Of a stretch of 64,000 bases of DNA, positions 38,281 through 62,625 are shown piece after piece. Each line of letters begins with the position of its first letter. Position 1 is the stretch's first letter. The stretch is taken from NCBI GenBank assembly GCA_001560915.1, contig CP014214.1:62001-126000 (forward strand), written 5' to 3'. The notes under the pieces were generated by a model. That model was not told the origin of the DNA and did no database searches. It saw only the letters and a program-made list of their open reading frames with translations. The DNA comes from a methanogenic archaeon ISO4-H5. GTDB taxonomy: Archaea; Thermoplasmatota; Thermoplasmata; Methanomassiliicoccales; Methanomethylophilaceae. The position numbers and the translations under genes are program-made.

Positions 38281-38308
38281 AAAAGTATGCCGGCCCCGGA
38301 GGGCCGGC
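38281..38308 (-). terminator. Terminator of the five-gene SPFH operon
   Basis: Perfect 8-bp stem GCCGGCCC / GGGCCGGC (loop four bases; 38289-38308), followed on the minus strand by ATACTTTTACG. It lies ten bases after the SPFH gene stop. Confidence 0.8.
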
Positions 38309-38317
38309 GGGAGGGTT

Positions 38318-39439
38318 TCAGGAAAGTTCTTCCGCGCAGTAAGGGCAGAACTTGGGGGTCTTCTTCAGAGTGCTGAGGTCCTCTCCGCAGTACGGGCAGC
38401 GCATGAACGCACGTGCTCCGCCGGTAGGCTGGGGAGCAGGCTGAGGTGCGGGCTGGGGAGCCGGGGTCTGCTGTGCCTGCATCTGGGGCGAGGGCTTTCC
38501 GCAGTTGCCGCAGAACTTGTAGGGATAGTCGTTGAGACCTCCGCAGAAGGGACACATGACTTTCTGTGCCTGGGGCTGGGCCTGCTGCGCCTGGACTCCT
38601 GCGACGGGCTGCTGCTGGAGCTGCTGGTACATCTGGGGGAACAGGAGCATACCGGTTCCCATGGCGGCTCCTCCCTCGGAATTGCCGATGGCATCCGCCA
38701 TCCTGTCCATGACTTCGTACCTCTTGTAGGCCTCTCCGTTGGCGCTGGAGAACTGGAGATATTCGAAGACCTTCTTCTTCTCCTCCTCGGTGGTGGAGAC
38801 CTCGTTGATCTTCAGCGAGAGCAGTTCGATACCCCTCTGCTGGAAGTAGGGGTCGATGAGGATCTTGGTGGTGGAAGAGGCCTTCTCCAGGTTCTGCATG
38901 ACATCCATGTAGTACTGCTGGGACAGCTGCTGGGTAATCTGCTCGTTGATGAAGCTTTTCATGAAGGCGTTGACGTCGCCGGTGGAGTAGGATTTCATTC
39001 CTCCGAGGACCTGGGTGTAGAACACGGAGGTGTCGGAGATCCTGAACTGGAACTCTCCGTTGGACATCAGGGTGATGGGGACCTCGTAGCCGGGGGCGGC
39101 CTTGATCATTCCCCTGATTCCCCATTTGCCGTTGAACATCTTCAGCGAGATGAAGACGATCCACACTTTGAACGGAGTGTCCCTGTAACCGAGGGCCTTG
39201 TTGTAGATGGCGGTCAGCCAGGGGATGTTGTTGGAGGTCACGATGTGCCTGCCGGGCTCCAGTACTCCCTGGAGCTGTCCGTCCTTGAGGAACAGGGCGA
39301 CAGCGTGTTCCGGGACCGTGACGGAGGTCAGGGTCCTGAGGTCGTCGTCTTTGGAAACGTAAATGATGTCGTCGGGGCCCTGGTCCTTCCAGAACACCAC
39401 GTTCTCTTTCTTCTCTGCGTTGGATCCGAATAGTGCCAT
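38318..39439 (-). CDS. SPFH/Band-7 domain protein with C-terminal double zinc ribbon (YdjI-like)
   Basis: 373 aa. An N-terminal SPFH-type region (about residues 20-260) includes SVTVPEHAVALFLKDGQLQGVLEPGRH, and a coiled-coil end (EVSTTEEEKKKVFEYLQFSS). A Gln/Pro-rich linker then leads to two zinc ribbons (CPFCGG...CGNCGK and CPYCGE...CPYCAE). This architecture is that of bacterial YdjI-type proteins found beside PspA. No signal peptide. GGAGGA seven bases before ATG 39439 favours that start over ATG 39445, which overlaps the upstream stop. It is the last gene of a five-gene operon. Confidence 0.85.
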   Translation of the reverse strand: MALFGSNAEKKENVVFWKDQGPDDIIYVSKDDDLRTLTSVTVPEHAVALFLKDGQLQGVLEPGRHIVTSNNIPWLTAIYNKALGYRDTPFKVWIVFISLKMFNGKWGIRGMIKAAPGYEVPITLMSNGEFQFRISDTSVFYTQVLGGMKSYSTGDVNAFMKSFINEQITQQLSQQYYMDVMQNLEKASSTTKILIDPYFQQRGIELLSLKINEVSTTEEEKKKVFEYLQFSSANGEAYKRYEVMDRMADAIGNSEGGAAMGTGMLLFPQMYQQLQQQPVAGVQAQQAQPQAQKVMCPFCGGLNDYPYKFCGNCGKPSPQMQAQQTPAPQPAPQPAPQPTGGARAFMRCPYCGEDLSTLKKTPKFCPYCAEELS

Positions 39440-39441
39440 CT

Positions 39442-39981
39442 TCATTCCTCCTCTACCAGGTTCTTCATGACGTTGTCCCTCTCGCGGAAGGTGTTGATCA
39501 TCTCGTCGACGGTCTGCTCGATCACCCTCATGTCGGATTTGATGGGGAGTCCCTCGTCGATGTTCTGCAGCATCTTGGCGGACTGCTCCTTGAGGAGTTC
39601 CACGTCGTCGATGAGATTAGCATCCCACTCGATGACCTTGTCGAGTTCGCTCTCCAGGACCTTCACGGAGGCGTGCACTCCGCTGTATCCTCCGACCGCC
39701 TTCTTGACATCGGTGCAGTATCTGTCGACTTTGGTCCTGATCCTTTCCATGTCTCTCATGGCGTTCACATCGCCCAGGGTGGCCCTGGCGGCGTTGGCGA
39801 GATCGTTCTTGACCGCGGTCAGGACCTTGGCGACAACGTCCCTGATGGCACGGTCCTCGTCCCTGCGGAGGTTCTTCTGTTTGTAACCCCTGTAGATGGG
39901 GATGTACATCTGGATCCTCTCGATGAGGGTCCTGTTCTTGCCGATGGATGCCTCGGCACTGTTTTCGAGTGCGTTTCCCAT
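39442..39981 (-). CDS. Coiled-coil protein of the SPFH operon
   Basis: 179-aa protein, all helical with heptad-like spacing and no membrane segment. It resembles, from memory, a bacterial family found next to SPFH and PspA genes: the block GYKQKNLRRDEDRAIRDVVAKVL, then a GYSGVHASVKVLESELDKV segment (about residues 98-116). The start is ATG 39981 (MGNALENSAEAS) because GAGGTG precedes it by six bases; a GTG two codons earlier is weaker. It is separated by nine bases from the membrane protein gene upstream. Confidence 0.7.
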   Translation of the reverse strand: MGNALENSAEASIGKNRTLIERIQMYIPIYRGYKQKNLRRDEDRAIRDVVAKVLTAVKNDLANAARATLGDVNAMRDMERIRTKVDRYCTDVKKAVGGYSGVHASVKVLESELDKVIEWDANLIDDVELLKEQSAKMLQNIDEGLPIKSDMRVIEQTVDEMINTFRERDNVMKNLVEEE

Positions 39982-39990
39982 TTTCACACC

Positions 39991-40368
39991 TCAGTATTTT
40001 GCTTGCTTGCTGTTAGAGATTGCCGTCAGGGCTCCCAGGATGGCGATGCCTATGAGGAGCACGGCGATGAGTATGTACCATGCGGCCCCGAATCCGTGGA
40101 GGAGCAGGACCGCTCCGATGATCGCCAGGAGGACGCCTGCGACCAGACGGTAGACCCTCTCGGAAGGTCCGAATTTGTCGGGGGTGCCGCTGAACATGAG
40201 CGACAGGGCTGCGATGCCGATGCCGACCACGAGGATGAAGATTCCTGCGGCAGCCAGGGCGCCCAGGTCGGTGGCACCGTATATTACGATGGCCAGGGCC
40301 GCTGCGATCAGGATGAATGCACCCACCAGTGCCTGGCGGGTCCTGTATGCGTTTCCGGTGTTTTCCAT
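39991..40368 (-). CDS. Four-helix membrane protein of the SPFH operon
   Basis: 125 aa with four strongly hydrophobic helices (about residues 14-30, 36-58, 72-90 and 95-114) and short loops. The N-terminus (MENTGNAYRTRQ) and C-terminus (SNSKQAKY) are hydrophilic, so both ends face the same side. No family recognised. GAGGTATTGAA provides a ribosome-binding site. Likely the membrane anchor of the operon's system (inference). Confidence 0.75.
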   Translation of the reverse strand: MENTGNAYRTRQALVGAFILIAAALAIVIYGATDLGALAAAGIFILVVGIGIAALSLMFSGTPDKFGPSERVYRLVAGVLLAIIGAVLLLHGFGAAWYILIAVLLIGIAILGALTAISNSKQAKY

Positions 40369-40377
40369 TTCAATACC

Positions 40378-41916
40378 TCACAATACGATCAATTGTCCGA
40401 GGTCGGTGCGTTTGACTCTCTCGGGGGTCAGGACACCGAATTCAGGTTTTACTGTAAGTCTGTTGCCCGAGCTCTCGAAGGGGATGTATATCAGCTCCTT
40501 CACATCGGGGTTGCTGAGTTTGAGCTTGTCCAGGGTCTTGGACATCCACTGGATGTAGGTCTCGGCGATGCGTTCCGCCTCGCGTTTCGTGCTGAGAGGG
40601 GCCACGATCTTCCTGCCTGCGGCTGAGTTCTGGGCGGCGGATTCGGCCAGTCTTCCCAGTCCTTGGGAGTTGCTGATGCTGGTCTCGTTGCCGGTGAGTC
40701 CGGCGAACAGTCCGTTGGATCCTTTGACGCTGAAGACGTCGGTGACCGCGAGACGGGGGGAGCTGAGACAGTCCCCGTCGATGACGAAGTCGGCCGGAAT
40801 CAGGAGGATCTCGCTGACCTCCACGCTGTGCTTCTTCCACAGGGAACCGGTCTGGAAACTGTATTTCAGATCGATGTGCCAGAACGGTACGAGTATGTCT
40901 CCGGATCCTGCGGTTATGGGCAGGGTTCCGGAACCGTTCTTGGCCTTTACGCACTCCGCCATATAACCGAATATCTCGGCGAGGCGGTCGTGGTTGTTGA
41001 GCAGGAACGCCCAGTTGCCCTGGGCGGGATATTGGAAGGTGAAAATGCGCCTGACAGCATCGAAGATCTCCTTGCTGCCGCCCATTCCGTTGACGTAATC
41101 GGTCAGTTCAATCAGGACCTCGGCCATTTTGGCCTCCTGGTTGACCGCCTGACCCATGATTGCGACCTTGATGTTCCCCATGACTGCGGCTGAAGCGCTC
41201 TTCAGTTTGTCCCTGCCCGCTTCGAAGAGGGGGCGGGAGGAGGCCACGTCGCCGTTCATCAGCATCTCGCAGCCGTTGCACAGCTGTGCCAGCGCGTCGA
41301 AACGGTCGCGTGCCGGAGCATAGTCGTCCATGTGTCCGAAGTCGGCGGAGGCCAGGGTGAAGTTGTTGGCCATGAGGGTGAACCTGCCGGGTTTGTCCTC
41401 GCCGATGAGGGCGCAGTTGTTGATCAGGAGCGCATAGGCATCGGTGACCCTCGTGACCTCTGTCATTACCTTGGATGTCTCGCCGCTGACCGCCAGGGGC
41501 GCGATCTCGTTCATCTTGGCGCCGAACTCGAAGGCCTGGTTGGAGGTGTGGCTCGTCACGATCTTCCTGGTGGTGAAGGGCATCACCATCAGTGATTGGG
41601 AAAGGAGGTTGTTCATGCCGAATTTGTAGGCGGCGAACTCCATGTCCACCTTCGGTTTGAAGTTGGTCATGAAGATGTTGTGCCTTGCCACGCTGTCGAC
41701 GTTCTCGGTCATGGCGGGGGTCATGCCTCCGGGCATGGCCTGACTGACCCATGAGCGGACCTGTCCCATCAGCTGATCAAGGTAGGCACGGGCATCCATT
41801 TTCTGCTGGGTGGTACCGCAGCTGGAACATGTGATATAGGGGCTGTCGTCCTTCACGGCGGAGGCATCGAGCGGGGCTCCGCAGTACTTGCATCTTAGCG
41901 CTATCATGTCATCCAT
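40378..41916 (-). CDS. Zinc-ribbon protein of the SPFH operon
   Basis: 512 aa. An N-terminal zinc ribbon (CKYCGA...CSSCGT, residues 9-35) precedes a long region of unknown fold, helical to about residue 310 (SYITCSS..., DVASSRPLFEAGRDKLKSASAAV) and then more mixed with strands (SGDILVPFWHIDLKYSFQTG). No membrane helix. The start at 41916 follows a GGTGATC ribosome-binding site that overlaps the preceding stop. No enzymatic motif is visible. Confidence 0.7.
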   Translation of the reverse strand: MDDMIALRCKYCGAPLDASAVKDDSPYITCSSCGTTQQKMDARAYLDQLMGQVRSWVSQAMPGGMTPAMTENVDSVARHNIFMTNFKPKVDMEFAAYKFGMNNLLSQSLMVMPFTTRKIVTSHTSNQAFEFGAKMNEIAPLAVSGETSKVMTEVTRVTDAYALLINNCALIGEDKPGRFTLMANNFTLASADFGHMDDYAPARDRFDALAQLCNGCEMLMNGDVASSRPLFEAGRDKLKSASAAVMGNIKVAIMGQAVNQEAKMAEVLIELTDYVNGMGGSKEIFDAVRRIFTFQYPAQGNWAFLLNNHDRLAEIFGYMAECVKAKNGSGTLPITAGSGDILVPFWHIDLKYSFQTGSLWKKHSVEVSEILLIPADFVIDGDCLSSPRLAVTDVFSVKGSNGLFAGLTGNETSISNSQGLGRLAESAAQNSAAGRKIVAPLSTKREAERIAETYIQWMSKTLDKLKLSNPDVKELIYIPFESSGNRLTVKPEFGVLTPERVKRTDLGQLIVL

Positions 41917-41920
41917 CGGA

Positions 41921-42838
41921 TCACCTGTGCATCGATGCGCTGAACCTCACGGAAGCGATTTCCGCTTCGAGGCGGGCCTCAATGGCATGTACCTCTGCCA
42001 TGGCACGTTCGTAGTATACCCTGGAGATGTCGTCGGACCTGTTGGAGATGGCGGTATAGCAGGGGACGCAGACGTAGATGGATCTCACATCTTCGGAAAT
42101 GGGTTTGACGATGTCGCCCTCGGTCTCCTTGGCGAAAACTGGTGCGATGGTGCTCCTCATAGGCTGGAAGTGGATGCCCTCTCCGTTGGCAGGCCTGCCG
42201 CAGATCCAGCACCTGGCCGATCTGGCATAATCCTGGGCAAGTTTGAGTTCCTGGTCTCCGCTGTCTCCCAGCTGACGGCGGAAGTTGTAGGACATCTGCA
42301 TGTATTCCGAGGCCATCTTGGGGTCCTCGGATACGCTGCCCTCTCCGAGGACGTAGTATCCCTCGGCCTGCAGGATGAGGGCCTCCCTGTTTCCGGTGGC
42401 GGCGGTGGTGCCTTTGAAGATCTCGTCGAATTTGAGGTTCTTCTCCCCGATGCGGGCCATGAACTCCCCCGCGCAGGCGATGAGTGCGGCGCTCTTCTCC
42501 TTATAGAGCGAGTCGGGAAGGTTGTTGGCCTCGATCTCCTTGATGTCGAGCTCGGTCTCTGCGATGAGGTCCGCCACATCTATGTCGGTGAGTCCGAATT
42601 TGAAAGAATTGATTTTCAGATCTCCGAGAGCGTTCCTCAGGGTCTTGTAGCAGCCGAGGCTGGAACGGTTGGCCCCAACGTCCAGGATGCCTATGTAGAC
42701 CTGTGCCAGACCGTCGTTGGTGTACCCTTTCTGGGTGGCGTCGGTGAATTTTTTCTTAGCTCCGCTGAAGTCGCGCCTCCCGATCATATCGAGGCCTTCG
42801 GTGTAGAGCTGTTCTCCGTTTTTGAATAAGAACGCCAA
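41921..42838 (-). CDS. TPR-like protein with a zinc site, first gene of the SPFH operon
   Basis: 305 aa. The start is TTG 42838 with GGGAG upstream (MAFLFKNGEQLYTEG). The N-terminal part looks like a TPR-type helical repeat (LYTEGLDMIGRRDFSGAKKKFTDATQKG). A later CWICGR ... CVPC pair of cysteine pairs (about residues 207-253) probably binds zinc. A GGATAAGGATATTCC tract lies upstream on the minus strand as promoter. All five genes are spaced by at most ten bases, with stop/start overlap at one junction. Confidence 0.72.
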   Translation of the reverse strand: MAFLFKNGEQLYTEGLDMIGRRDFSGAKKKFTDATQKGYTNDGLAQVYIGILDVGANRSSLGCYKTLRNALGDLKINSFKFGLTDIDVADLIAETELDIKEIEANNLPDSLYKEKSAALIACAGEFMARIGEKNLKFDEIFKGTTAATGNREALILQAEGYYVLGEGSVSEDPKMASEYMQMSYNFRRQLGDSGDQELKLAQDYARSARCWICGRPANGEGIHFQPMRSTIAPVFAKETEGDIVKPISEDVRSIYVCVPCYTAISNRSDDISRVYYERAMAEVHAIEARLEAEIASVRFSASMHR

Positions 42839-43177: not shown

Positions 43178-45361
43178 ATGATTAATTTTAGGTTCGACGC
43201 CGTTAAGAGGGCCACTGCGAAAGAACCGATCGAAGCGACAGCTCCTTCCAGGGAGACATCCGACTACTACGGATGCAACGTATTCAACAGGGCGGCTATG
43301 AGGAAGTACCTCGATGCCGACACCCGCAGGACCATCTACGAGACCATCGAGAGGGGTGCAACCCTCGATACCACCATTGCCGAGTATGTTGCGGCCGGTA
43401 TGAAGAGATGGGCCATCGACCGCGGGGTAACCCACTACACCCACTGGTTCCAGCCCCTCACCGGCGGTACCGCGGAGAAGCACGACTCCTTCGCCGACCC
43501 GCGCGCCCGTGACGAATCCATCGAGAAGTTCAGCGGAAAGCTGCTGTGCCAGCAGGAGCCTGACGCATCCTCGTTCCCCAGCGGAGGACTGAGGAACACC
43601 TTCGAGGCCAGGGGCTATACCGCATGGGACCCCTCCTCCCCCGCCTTCATCATCGGAGATACCCTCTGTATCCCCACCGTGTTCGTTTCCTACGCAGGAG
43701 AGGCCCTCGACTACAAGACCCCCCTCCTGAAATCCGACGCCGCCGTGACCAAGGCCGCCAGCGAGCTGCTGACCATCATGGGCATGCCCGGCGAGGTCAC
43801 CCACTCCTATCTCGGATGGGAGCAGGAGTACTTCCTGGTCGACAAGGACCTGTACTCGCAGCGTCCCGACCTGGTGCTCACCGACCGTACCCTCATCGGA
43901 CACGTATCCTCCAAGAACCAGCAGCTCGAGGACCACTACTTCGGTTCCATCCCCGCCAGGGTCATGGAGTTCATGAGAGACCTGGAGTTCGAGTGCTACA
44001 AGCTCGGAATCCCTGTCAAGACCAGGCACAACGAGGTGGCACCGGGACAGTACGAAATCGCACCCGTGTACGAAATCTCCAACCTGGCCATCGACCACAA
44101 CCTTCTGCTCATGTCCGTCATGAAGTCCGTGGCGGCCAAGCACAGCTTCGCCGTGCTGCTCCACGAGAAGCCCTATGCGGGTGTCAACGGATCCGGCAAG
44201 CACTGCAACTGGTCCATCGGCACCGAGAGCGGAATCGGACTGTTCTCCCCCGGCAAGACCGACAACGAGAACCTCAGGTTCCTCTGTTTCATGGCCAACA
44301 CCCTCAAGGCGGTCTACGACAACAACGCACTGCTGAAGGCATCCGTCATGACCGCTTCCAACTCCCACAGGCTGGGAGCCAACGAGGCACCTCCCGCGAT
44401 CATTTCCTCGTTCCTCGGAACTCAGGTCCACTCGGCCTTCGAGGAGCTCCTGAAATCCAAGGACATGGTCAAGATCGCAGGAAAGAAAGGATACAGTCTC
44501 GGAATCCCGCAGGTCCCCGAGCTCATCGTGGACAACACCGACAGGAACAGGACCTCTCCCTTTGCCTTTACCGGTAACAGGTTCGAGTTCAGGGCCGTCG
44601 GTTCGTCCGCCAACTGCTCCGGACCCATCACCATCCTGAACACCCTGCTGGCATATCAGCTCGAGCAGTTCATCGCAACCGTCAAGAAGCAGATCAAGAA
44701 CGGTGTCGACCCCCTCAGGGCGATCCTCGACGAGACCCGCGAGACCTACAGGTCCTGCCAGGCCATCTGCTTCGACGGAAACGGATATTCCGACGAGTGG
44801 AAGGAGGAGGCCAAGAAGCGCGGACTGGACTGCGAGAGCTCAGTCCCCGTGTGCATGGACGCCTACACCACCAAGCAGACTGTCAAGATCTTCGAGACCG
44901 AGAAGGTCCTGACCAAGGTCGAGCTGGAATCCAGGAAGGAGGTTTTCCTAGAGATTTACTGTAAGAGGATCTCCATCGAGGCCAAGACTCTGGGCGATCT
45001 GGTGACCAACCACGTCATTCCCGTGGCGATCAGGTATCAGAACATCCTGCTGGAGAATGTGAAGAACCTCAAGGACATCTACGGGGAGAAGGACTTCAAG
45101 AAGTACGCCGCTTCGCAGCTCGACCTGATCAAGTGCATCTCCGAGGATATCTCCGCCGCTGAGTCGGAGATCGACCGTCTCGACATCCTGGTGGAGAAGA
45201 TCGAAGCCAACGGAGAGGGACGTGCAGCAGCCGTTCAGTACCATGACAAAGTGGTCCCCATGCTGGAGAATATCCGTAAGCACGTGGACTCCCTGGAGCT
45301 CATGGTCGACGACCAGATGTGGCCCCTGCCCAAGTACAGGGAGCTGCTCTTCATCCACTGA
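43178..45361 (+). CDS. glnN: Glutamine synthetase type III
   Basis: ATP-dependent glutamate + ammonia to glutamine. 727 aa, the length of the GSIII family rather than the ~450-aa GSI usual in methanogens. GSIII features seen: N-terminal YYGCNVFNRAAMRKYL, THWFQPLTGGTAEKHDSF, GWEQEYFLVDKDLY (metal ligands), RHNEVAPGQYEIAP and GVNGSGKHCNWSIG (catalytic core), and the C-terminal helical extension (KVVPMLENIRKHVDSLELMVDD). Predicted leaderless. It stands alone, with no nitrogen-regulation genes next to it. Confidence 0.95.
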   Translation: MINFRFDAVKRATAKEPIEATAPSRETSDYYGCNVFNRAAMRKYLDADTRRTIYETIERGATLDTTIAEYVAAGMKRWAIDRGVTHYTHWFQPLTGGTAEKHDSFADPRARDESIEKFSGKLLCQQEPDASSFPSGGLRNTFEARGYTAWDPSSPAFIIGDTLCIPTVFVSYAGEALDYKTPLLKSDAAVTKAASELLTIMGMPGEVTHSYLGWEQEYFLVDKDLYSQRPDLVLTDRTLIGHVSSKNQQLEDHYFGSIPARVMEFMRDLEFECYKLGIPVKTRHNEVAPGQYEIAPVYEISNLAIDHNLLLMSVMKSVAAKHSFAVLLHEKPYAGVNGSGKHCNWSIGTESGIGLFSPGKTDNENLRFLCFMANTLKAVYDNNALLKASVMTASNSHRLGANEAPPAIISSFLGTQVHSAFEELLKSKDMVKIAGKKGYSLGIPQVPELIVDNTDRNRTSPFAFTGNRFEFRAVGSSANCSGPITILNTLLAYQLEQFIATVKKQIKNGVDPLRAILDETRETYRSCQAICFDGNGYSDEWKEEAKKRGLDCESSVPVCMDAYTTKQTVKIFETEKVLTKVELESRKEVFLEIYCKRISIEAKTLGDLVTNHVIPVAIRYQNILLENVKNLKDIYGEKDFKKYAASQLDLIKCISEDISAAESEIDRLDILVEKIEANGEGRAAAVQYHDKVVPMLENIRKHVDSLELMVDDQMWPLPKYRELLFIH

Positions 45362-61320: not shown

Positions 61321-62625
61321 ATGGCGACATCCGTATCCGAAGTGAAGGATGCAAAATTAGCGGCTCTTAAGATGGCCGCACTCGATACCGGGACGAAGGA
61401 TAATGCGCTGAAGGCGATGGCAGACGCCATAATCGCCAACAGGCAGAAGATCCTCGAAGCGAACGCAGCCGACGTGGCGGATGCCGAAGGCAACGTCCCT
61501 CCCGAGATTCTCAAGAGGCTGAAGCTCAACGACGACAAGGTCGATGATATGGTCGCCAGTATCCTTGACGTCGCCCGTCTGAAGGATCCGGTAGGCGAGA
61601 CCATGTCCGCCATCGAATTGGATGCCGGTCTCGAGCTCTATCAGAAGAGGTGTCCCATAGGATTGATCGGAGTGATCTTCGAAGCGAGACCCGAGGTGGT
61701 CCCTCAAATCATGTCGCTCTGCCTCAAGAGCGGGAATGCCGTCCTGTTCAAGGGCGGTTCCGAGGCCAAGAGGTCCAACAGGATCCTCTTCGATATCCTT
61801 CAGGAAGCAGCAGCTTCCGCAGGGGTTCCCCGCGAGGCCTTCGTCCTGATGGAGACCAGGGAGGACATTTCCGAGATCCTGAAGATGGATGAATATATCG
61901 ATCTCCTCATTCCCCGCGGTTCCTACAGTTTTGTCAAATTTATTCAGACAAATACAAACATCCCCGTCCTGGGGCACTCCGCAGGGGTCTGCCATATCTA
62001 TGTGGATTCAGACGCAGACCTTCTCAAGGCGTTCGGAGTGGTGCTCGATTCCAAGATCCAATATCCCGCAGCATGCAATGCCGTGGAGAAGGTGCTGGTC
62101 AATGGGGCCATCGCACCTTACTTCCTTCCCCGCATGGCCGACCAGTTCAAGGCCAACGGTGTGGAGATGAGGGTGGAGGAATCCCTCGCCAAGTACCTGC
62201 TCGGATTCGATTACAAGATTGCTACCGAAGAGGATTGGACTGCGGAATACGACGGTCTCACCATAGCCATCAGGTCTGTGAAGGATCTTGAAGAGGCAAT
62301 CACCATCATCAACAGCAACGGCTCCCACCACACCGACTGCATCATCACTGAGAACAAGGAGAAACAGGACGAGTTCGCCCGCAGGGTAGACTCCGCGGAT
62401 GTGTTCATCAACGCCTCCACCCGTTTCGCTGACGGATTCCGTTTCGGCAAGGGTGCCGAGGTAGGAATATCCACCAATAAGATCCATGCCCGCGGACCCA
62501 TGGGCATGGAGGGACTTATGATCTACAAGTACGTCCTTGTGGGCAACGGCCACATGGTCAAGGATTATGTCGGCAAGAACGCTAAACCCTACACCCACCG
62601 CAAGATCGACCTCAGGGAGGACTGA
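61321..62625 (+). CDS. proA: Glutamate-5-semialdehyde dehydrogenase (gamma-glutamyl phosphate reductase)
   Basis: Second step of proline synthesis: NADPH reduction of gamma-glutamyl phosphate. 434 aa. MATSVSEVKDAKLAALKMAALDT start, the catalytic cysteine in YPAACNAVEKVLV (about residue 252), and the family end NASTRFADGFRFGKGAEVGIS. Two bases separate it from proB. The order proA-proB is reversed from the common bacterial proB-proA. Confidence 0.95.
   Translation: MATSVSEVKDAKLAALKMAALDTGTKDNALKAMADAIIANRQKILEANAADVADAEGNVPPEILKRLKLNDDKVDDMVASILDVARLKDPVGETMSAIELDAGLELYQKRCPIGLIGVIFEARPEVVPQIMSLCLKSGNAVLFKGGSEAKRSNRILFDILQEAAASAGVPREAFVLMETREDISEILKMDEYIDLLIPRGSYSFVKFIQTNTNIPVLGHSAGVCHIYVDSDADLLKAFGVVLDSKIQYPAACNAVEKVLVNGAIAPYFLPRMADQFKANGVEMRVEESLAKYLLGFDYKIATEEDWTAEYDGLTIAIRSVKDLEEAITIINSNGSHHTDCIITENKEKQDEFARRVDSADVFINASTRFADGFRFGKGAEVGISTNKIHARGPMGMEGLMIYKYVLVGNGHMVKDYVGKNAKPYTHRKIDLRED

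Follow-up and report, generated by a model that had tools for sequence, protein, structure and literature searches.

The known components of the Psp system are all missing in more than half of 915 archaeal genomes (PMC9239133). The locus described here, from the methanogenic archaeon ISO4-H5 (Thermoplasmata; Methanomassiliicoccales; Methanomethylophilaceae), offers a concrete, conserved candidate for how such Psp-less archaea may look after their membranes. It lies in a window of 64,000 nucleotides (positions 62,001 to 126,000 of contig CP014214.1; all coordinates below are those of the window unless otherwise indicated), and the host genome is one contig of 1.94 Mb that is 99.9% complete. Does the locus encode a membrane-maintenance machine that operates without PspA, and if so, which of its genes make up the machine?

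Layout of the operon

A first-pass annotation of the window had singled out a compact operon of SPFH, zinc-ribbon and membrane protein genes. All five open reading frames were confirmed, as a minus-strand set at 38318-42838 in which neighbors lie no more than 9 nt apart. The order of transcription is TPR-Zn (gene 1), ZnR (gene 2), 4TM (gene 3), CC (gene 4) and SPFH (gene 5); the gaps in that order are 4, 9 and 3 nt, and genes 4 and 5 overlap by 4 nt. The genes and their surroundings are as follows.

41921..42838, minus strand: gene 1 (P0005), 305-aa TPR-like protein with a four-cysteine zinc site
40378..41916, minus strand: gene 2 (P0004), 512-aa protein with a zinc ribbon, a helical middle and a beta domain
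39991..40368, minus strand: gene 3 (P0003), 125-aa integral membrane protein with four predicted helices
39442..39987, minus strand: gene 4 (P0002, "CC"), helical-bundle protein
38318..39445, minus strand: gene 5 (P0001), 375-aa YdjI-type SPFH protein (Band_7_1) with two C-terminal zinc ribbons
38289..38308, minus strand: terminator-like hairpin directly after the last stop codon
42839..43177, no strand assigned: divergent intergenic region
43178-45361, plus strand: glnN, type III glutamine synthetase, the divergent 5' neighbor of the operon

The hairpin has 8 G-C pairs and is a consensus match only; hairpins of this kind are about as numerous in the region as the shuffle mean. An upstream divergent regulatory region had also been claimed; a divergent region is indeed there, but it is common to the operon and glnN, and neither a regulator nor a stress promoter was detected for the operon. 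Comparison with a 90%-identical relative gave dN/dS values of about 0.05-0.17 for each of the five genes, and by this measure all five evolve under purifying selection.

The SPFH protein and the zinc sites

The SPFH domain of gene 5 scored 82.7 bits against Pfam Band_7_1 (PF13421; cut-off 24), and the eight cysteines of its C-terminal ribbons are all invariant among 15 SPFH proteins. On these sequence features it qualifies as a YdjI-type SPFH protein, as the first-pass annotation had it; the DZR model fell slightly short on this protein (25.3 against a cut-off of 27.3). Gene 5 has no membrane helix of its own, the maximum 19-residue hydropathy being 0.92. A second Band_7 protein, of canonical type, is encoded in the same genome at 978958. 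Homologues of the SPFH protein on bacterial plasmids adjoin DUF4178 and polyamine genes, or unrelated genes, and CC is not annotated beside them.

Zinc-binding cysteine pairs had been noticed in three of the five proteins, and the ligands proved invariant in alignments of genes 1 and 2 (16 sequences and 29 sequences of the 512-aa protein, respectively) as well as gene 5. The sites are located as follows.

42059..42211, minus strand: zinc-ligand segment of gene 1 (CWICG ... CVPC; C210, C213, C257 and C260), from the invariant-cysteine alignment
41818..41892, minus strand: zinc ribbon of gene 2 (C9, C12, C30 and C33)
38501..38554, minus strand: first zinc ribbon of the SPFH protein (C298, C301, C312 and C315)
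38336..38398, minus strand: second zinc ribbon of the SPFH protein (C350, C353, C367 and C370)

The TPR-Zn and ZnR pair

Gene 1 starts at a TTG codon that aligns with the ATG starts of its relatives, and the sole support for a TPR-like N terminus is a profile match to consensus TPRs at E 4.5e-4. The AF2 model of gene 2 (mean pLDDT 86.6) has an N-terminal ribbon, an all-helical middle (residues ~39-326) and a C-terminal beta domain (~332-512), and by hydropathy the protein lacks a membrane helix. No significant PDB fold match was found for this model. The commonest among its top matches are Bro1 domains (HD-PTP, BROX), all weak (E ~0.9-3); many Bro1 chains are matched, yet with E near 1 and low TM-scores a Bro1-like middle was not adopted and is a lead only.

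Without the helical part, gene 2 can be aligned over its whole remaining length with a family of 195-aa ZnR/beta proteins (174 columns, probability 96.8%), a figure owed mostly to the ribbon. Taken by itself, the beta part scored above every column-shuffled control (0/60 controls reached it in four tests and 0/100 in a fifth). Such controls are not beaten by the helical part, and the homology of the beta domain by itself to ZnR/beta is weak (hhalign probability below 20%). These alignments and the model support, short of proof, the idea that gene 2 is a YdjG-like ZnR/beta protein carrying a large helical insertion. The same genome encodes a 335-aa protein with a gene-2-type N-terminal zinc ribbon (G000:C1:314025-314189; L159:3240-4247), whose gene lies near one for a putative DNA cytosine methyltransferase.

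The membrane protein and CC

Among the five proteins only that of gene 3 contains strongly hydrophobic segments, and on hydropathy it is the operon's only membrane protein; helices were predicted here by simple hydropathy, on open reading frames called mechanically.

CC measures 181 aa when counted from a GTG codon, but translation probably begins at a conserved ATG at 39981. In its AF2 model (pLDDT 81) CC forms a bundle of four helices, with a short helix at the N terminus, and the model matched nothing in the PDB at E <= 0.001; the top match was IncA at E 0.03, and neither ESCRT-III nor PspA is among the best 50 fold matches. CC was considered as a hidden ESCRT-III or PspA protein, and this was rejected on the fold search together with a sequence search in which CHMP1B appeared at chance level (E 0.37). 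The nearest named family, a distant one, is LIMLP_15305 of Leptospira (NCBIfam NF047596), which CC matches over nearly its full length at 37.5 bits (E 2e-9), a long way short of the 210 bits that the family requires; other archaeal CCs score 46-52 bits against it.

Conservation within the Methanomethylophilaceae

Gene 2 is present in 54 of 120 genomes of the order, all 54 of which belong to one family; genome counts here are species samples and not independent events. In that family the genes are kept together, as the first-pass annotation required of a real system: the order TPR-Zn, ZnR, CC, SPFH on a single strand was found in 44 of the 50 loci examined. The slot for gene 3, which we take as the interval between gene 2 and CC, is open in nearly all of these 44 loci and is occupied by an open reading frame with hydrophobic segments in at least 31, mechanically called starts hiding some cases; two family loci (L052 and L063) have no space for it. 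Of 40 family loci examined, 27 have glnN beside the operon, and this is thus a stable, vertically inherited chromosomal locus.

Departures from this arrangement also occur. Two family genomes carry genes 1 and 2 only (L061 and L062). Several others that are full-size and near-complete (G042, G045, G051, G054 and G076) lack both gene 2 and CC; the system is therefore dispensable in some members and not essential everywhere. Four loci (L067-L070) hold genes 1 and 2 and the SPFH gene in a diverged copy, and in the three of them that were read out the next gene encodes one protein that combines membrane helices with a helical tail. The idea that this protein is a fusion of genes 3 and 4 was considered and rejected, its C-terminal score of 15.5 lying within that of shuffled controls (maximum 21.1). 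Upstream of this paralogous operon runs a series of multi-zinc-ribbon proteins (L067:3085-7131, also in L068), one of which has InlB-type repeats and a transglutaminase domain; the run is possibly a larger zinc-ribbon gene cluster.

Distribution across the Thermoplasmatota

The CC profile matches 146 of 390 sampled Thermoplasmatota genomes, and the gene 2 profile finds full-length relatives in nine genomes of that sample outside the family. One hundred CC loci were fetched, 99 of them from outside the family, of which one (L209) was incomplete, and CC was found again in 98. In 83 of these 98 loci an SPFH-zinc gene lies in the same-strand run as CC, with CC before SPFH. The remaining 15 are mostly from the marine-type family f35, in which the next gene is divergent and ~400 aa long, or are cut by contig ends. 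In the marine-type loci (L197, L202, L290-L298 and L300) CC is followed by this ~400-aa gene, some versions of which have a C-terminal zinc ribbon and which gave no Pfam SPFH match; putative ABC transporter genes often precede CC there.

Outside the family CC and SPFH are usually accompanied by one to three YdjG-like zinc-ribbon/beta proteins, and a small membrane protein is encoded upstream of CC in about 20 loci. A distant lineage (L139) has the same five-gene order as the window, with 32% identity in CC and 37% in gene 2. In another family (L247, L251, L254 and L258) the order is ZnR/beta, 195-aa ZnR/beta, 4TM, CC, SPFH, which is the topology of the window with gene 2 standing where the 195-aa protein is. 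Family f34 has genes 1 and 2 in the slot at one locus (L139) and a ZnR/beta protein there at another (L198), an alternation that is expected of functional equivalents. The f7 operons are headed by ~1500-aa TPR proteins with CxxC motifs (L194:1144-5664, L201:7784-12403 and L207:1439-5935), perhaps counterparts of the TPR-zinc protein of gene 1.

In acidophile-type Thermoplasmata (L148, L149, L151, L152, L153 and L156) the gene 1-gene 2 pair stands with no SPFH or CC gene nearby. This TPR-Zn/ZnR pair can thus act apart from SPFH and CC, as a module separable from them. In many loci a 4TM protein is encoded separately or else the ZnR/beta protein bears a membrane helix, a pattern in keeping with gene 3 as an anchor; L193, L195 and L204 show neither, and the rule therefore has exceptions. 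The shared core is CC, SPFH and zinc-ribbon/beta, with the small membrane protein optional. No description of such a CC-SPFH-ZnR/beta operon was found in the literature searched, a search that was incomplete.

Of the 100 other loci, 11 have a gene with a Glu_synthase domain in the vicinity of the related operon, close and divergent in nine cases (sister-family examples are L190, L191, L222-L224, L226, L230, L234 and L237). Two different nitrogen-assimilation genes, glnN and the Glu_synthase-domain gene, thereby adjoin the same system across families.

PspA and other known membrane-remodeling proteins

PspA/IM30 (PF04012) was not detected in the 99.9%-complete single contig of the host, and the first-pass annotation was correct on that point; but its absence is nothing special to this organism. 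PF04012 passes the cut-off in only 3 of 390 Thermoplasmatota genomes (the sample used for CC), and was detected in the controls Haloferax and Methanosarcina, so absence of PspA is a trait of the phylum and not a local replacement. Snf7 (PF03357) is also absent from the host genome, a TPM (YdjH-like) match was found in none of the five proteins, and none of the five genes encodes an ATPase by Pfam.

A proposed mechanism and its alternatives

In Bacillus subtilis the SPFH protein YdjI is soluble and depends on two membrane proteins, YdjG and YdjH, for its localization at the membrane, where it brings in PspA and keeps the membrane fluid (PMC8581546). By analogy with that system we propose that the operon encodes a YdjGHI-like scaffold on the cytoplasmic side of the membrane, working without PspA, a reading in which our belief and our doubt are evenly balanced. 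The SPFH protein, having no membrane helix, would assemble into an oligomer that the four-helix protein of gene 3 would tether to the membrane. CC would be an obligate SPFH partner placed between the membrane anchor and the scaffold, and the zinc ribbons of SPFH, gene 2 and gene 1 may be protein-protein docking modules. Genes 2 and 1 would supply the adaptor or sensor part, a role that simpler ZnR/beta proteins would fill in other Thermoplasmatota, and the whole would maintain or protect the membrane. The genomic context gives good support to assembly on the membrane, and a role in envelope stress or membrane homeostasis is suggested by analogy only. The earlier picture of a self-contained membrane machine is thus kept in part: association with the membrane through one integral protein stands, but the shared core is CC-SPFH-ZnR/beta, and genes 1 and 2 can be separated from it.

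A broader version, tentative and in our judgment somewhat improbable, is that this is a new, phylum-wide archaeal membrane-maintenance system in which CC would take the role of PspA as the protein that the SPFH-zinc-ribbon scaffold recruits, and to which the Methanomethylophilaceae would add the gene 1/gene 2 adaptor pair. The candidate comes from a phylum nearly devoid of PspA; its core is defined (CC and SPFH-zinc), its adaptors can be exchanged, and it has a likely membrane anchor.

The same genes might instead serve as a housekeeping chaperone for the quality control or assembly of membrane proteins, SPFH and the TPR/ribbon adaptors holding clients in the manner of HflK/C or prohibitin, with no part in stress or repair. 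TPR-type adaptors are indeed encoded by gene 1 and by the ~1500-aa gene that heads the f7 operons, a stable chromosomal locus with conserved neighbors under purifying selection suits such a function, and Ravi et al. interpret Band-7/TPM partners as assembly chaperones (PMC11237479). However, the conserved run has no protease (FtsH-like) or chaperone gene, its SPFH protein is YdjI-like (PF13421) and not HflK/C-like, and a separate canonical Band_7 protein is encoded elsewhere in the genome (978958); we consider this alternative unlikely, though it deserves real weight. A good deal less probable is an ESCRT-like remodeling or vesicle system in which CC would be the ESCRT-III/PspA-type polymer and gene 2 a Bro1-like adaptor. 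Bro1 domains do head the gene 2 model matches, but only at E ~0.9-3, and other methanogens do have SPFH and zinc-ribbon genes within their Meth_adaptin ESCRT loci (PMC10936438). Against it, the CC model, a short bundle of four helices, has no ESCRT-III or PspA protein in its best 50 matches, the CHMP1B sequence match is at chance level (E 0.37), and Snf7 is missing from a genome whose operon also has no AAA ATPase.

The neighbors at the divergent end bring in nitrogen. A membrane module linked to nitrogen status and coupled to the divergent glutamine synthetase, or in sister families to the glutamate-synthase-like gene, might be read from the 27 of 40 family loci with glnN and the 11 of 100 other loci with a Glu_synthase-domain gene; but most CC-SPFH loci have other neighbors and divergent synteny may last without functional linkage, and we think such coupling very improbable. 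An antiviral or mobile defense module is the sort of function that a compact multi-gene operon without a known role brings to mind, and it is largely refuted: there was no PADLOC match, no relatives were found in viral contigs nor any of gene 2 or CC on plasmids, and the operon is inherited vertically with conserved flanks. A viral or plasmid origin of the operon was rejected on the same PADLOC, viral-contig and plasmid searches.

Comparison with known systems

The scaffold reading is drawn from the pspA-ydjGHI operon of Bacillus subtilis, and the likeness lies in a soluble Band_7_1 SPFH protein with C-terminal zinc ribbons (PMC8581546; PMC11237479; PMC9239133), a zinc-ribbon partner, a membrane-protein partner and a compact single operon. 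Unlike it, the window operon has neither PspA nor TPM/YdjH, two of the four Bacillus partners; in their place it has the unrelated helical bundle CC, the 4TM protein and the TPR-zinc/ZnR pair, and whereas YdjG has a membrane helix gene 2 has none. Since PspA and TPM are both missing, the operon does not count as a Psp system. Among archaeal loci, the Meth_adaptin ESCRT loci of Methanobacteriales also encode a protein with SPFH, coiled-coil and zinc-ribbon parts, together with a zinc-ribbon protein whose N-terminal domain is uncharacterized (PMC10936438). Those loci hold Vps4, adaptin-appendage, GOLD and ProX genes (PMC10936438), whereas the window operon has none of these, and on present evidence it is not an ESCRT system. 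The other Thermoplasmatota CC-SPFH-ZnR/beta operons resemble the window operon in having CC followed by SPFH with zinc ribbons, a ZnR/beta protein and often a 4TM gene upstream, and the window operon differs from them in that the gene 1/gene 2 pair replaces the simple ZnR/beta proteins.
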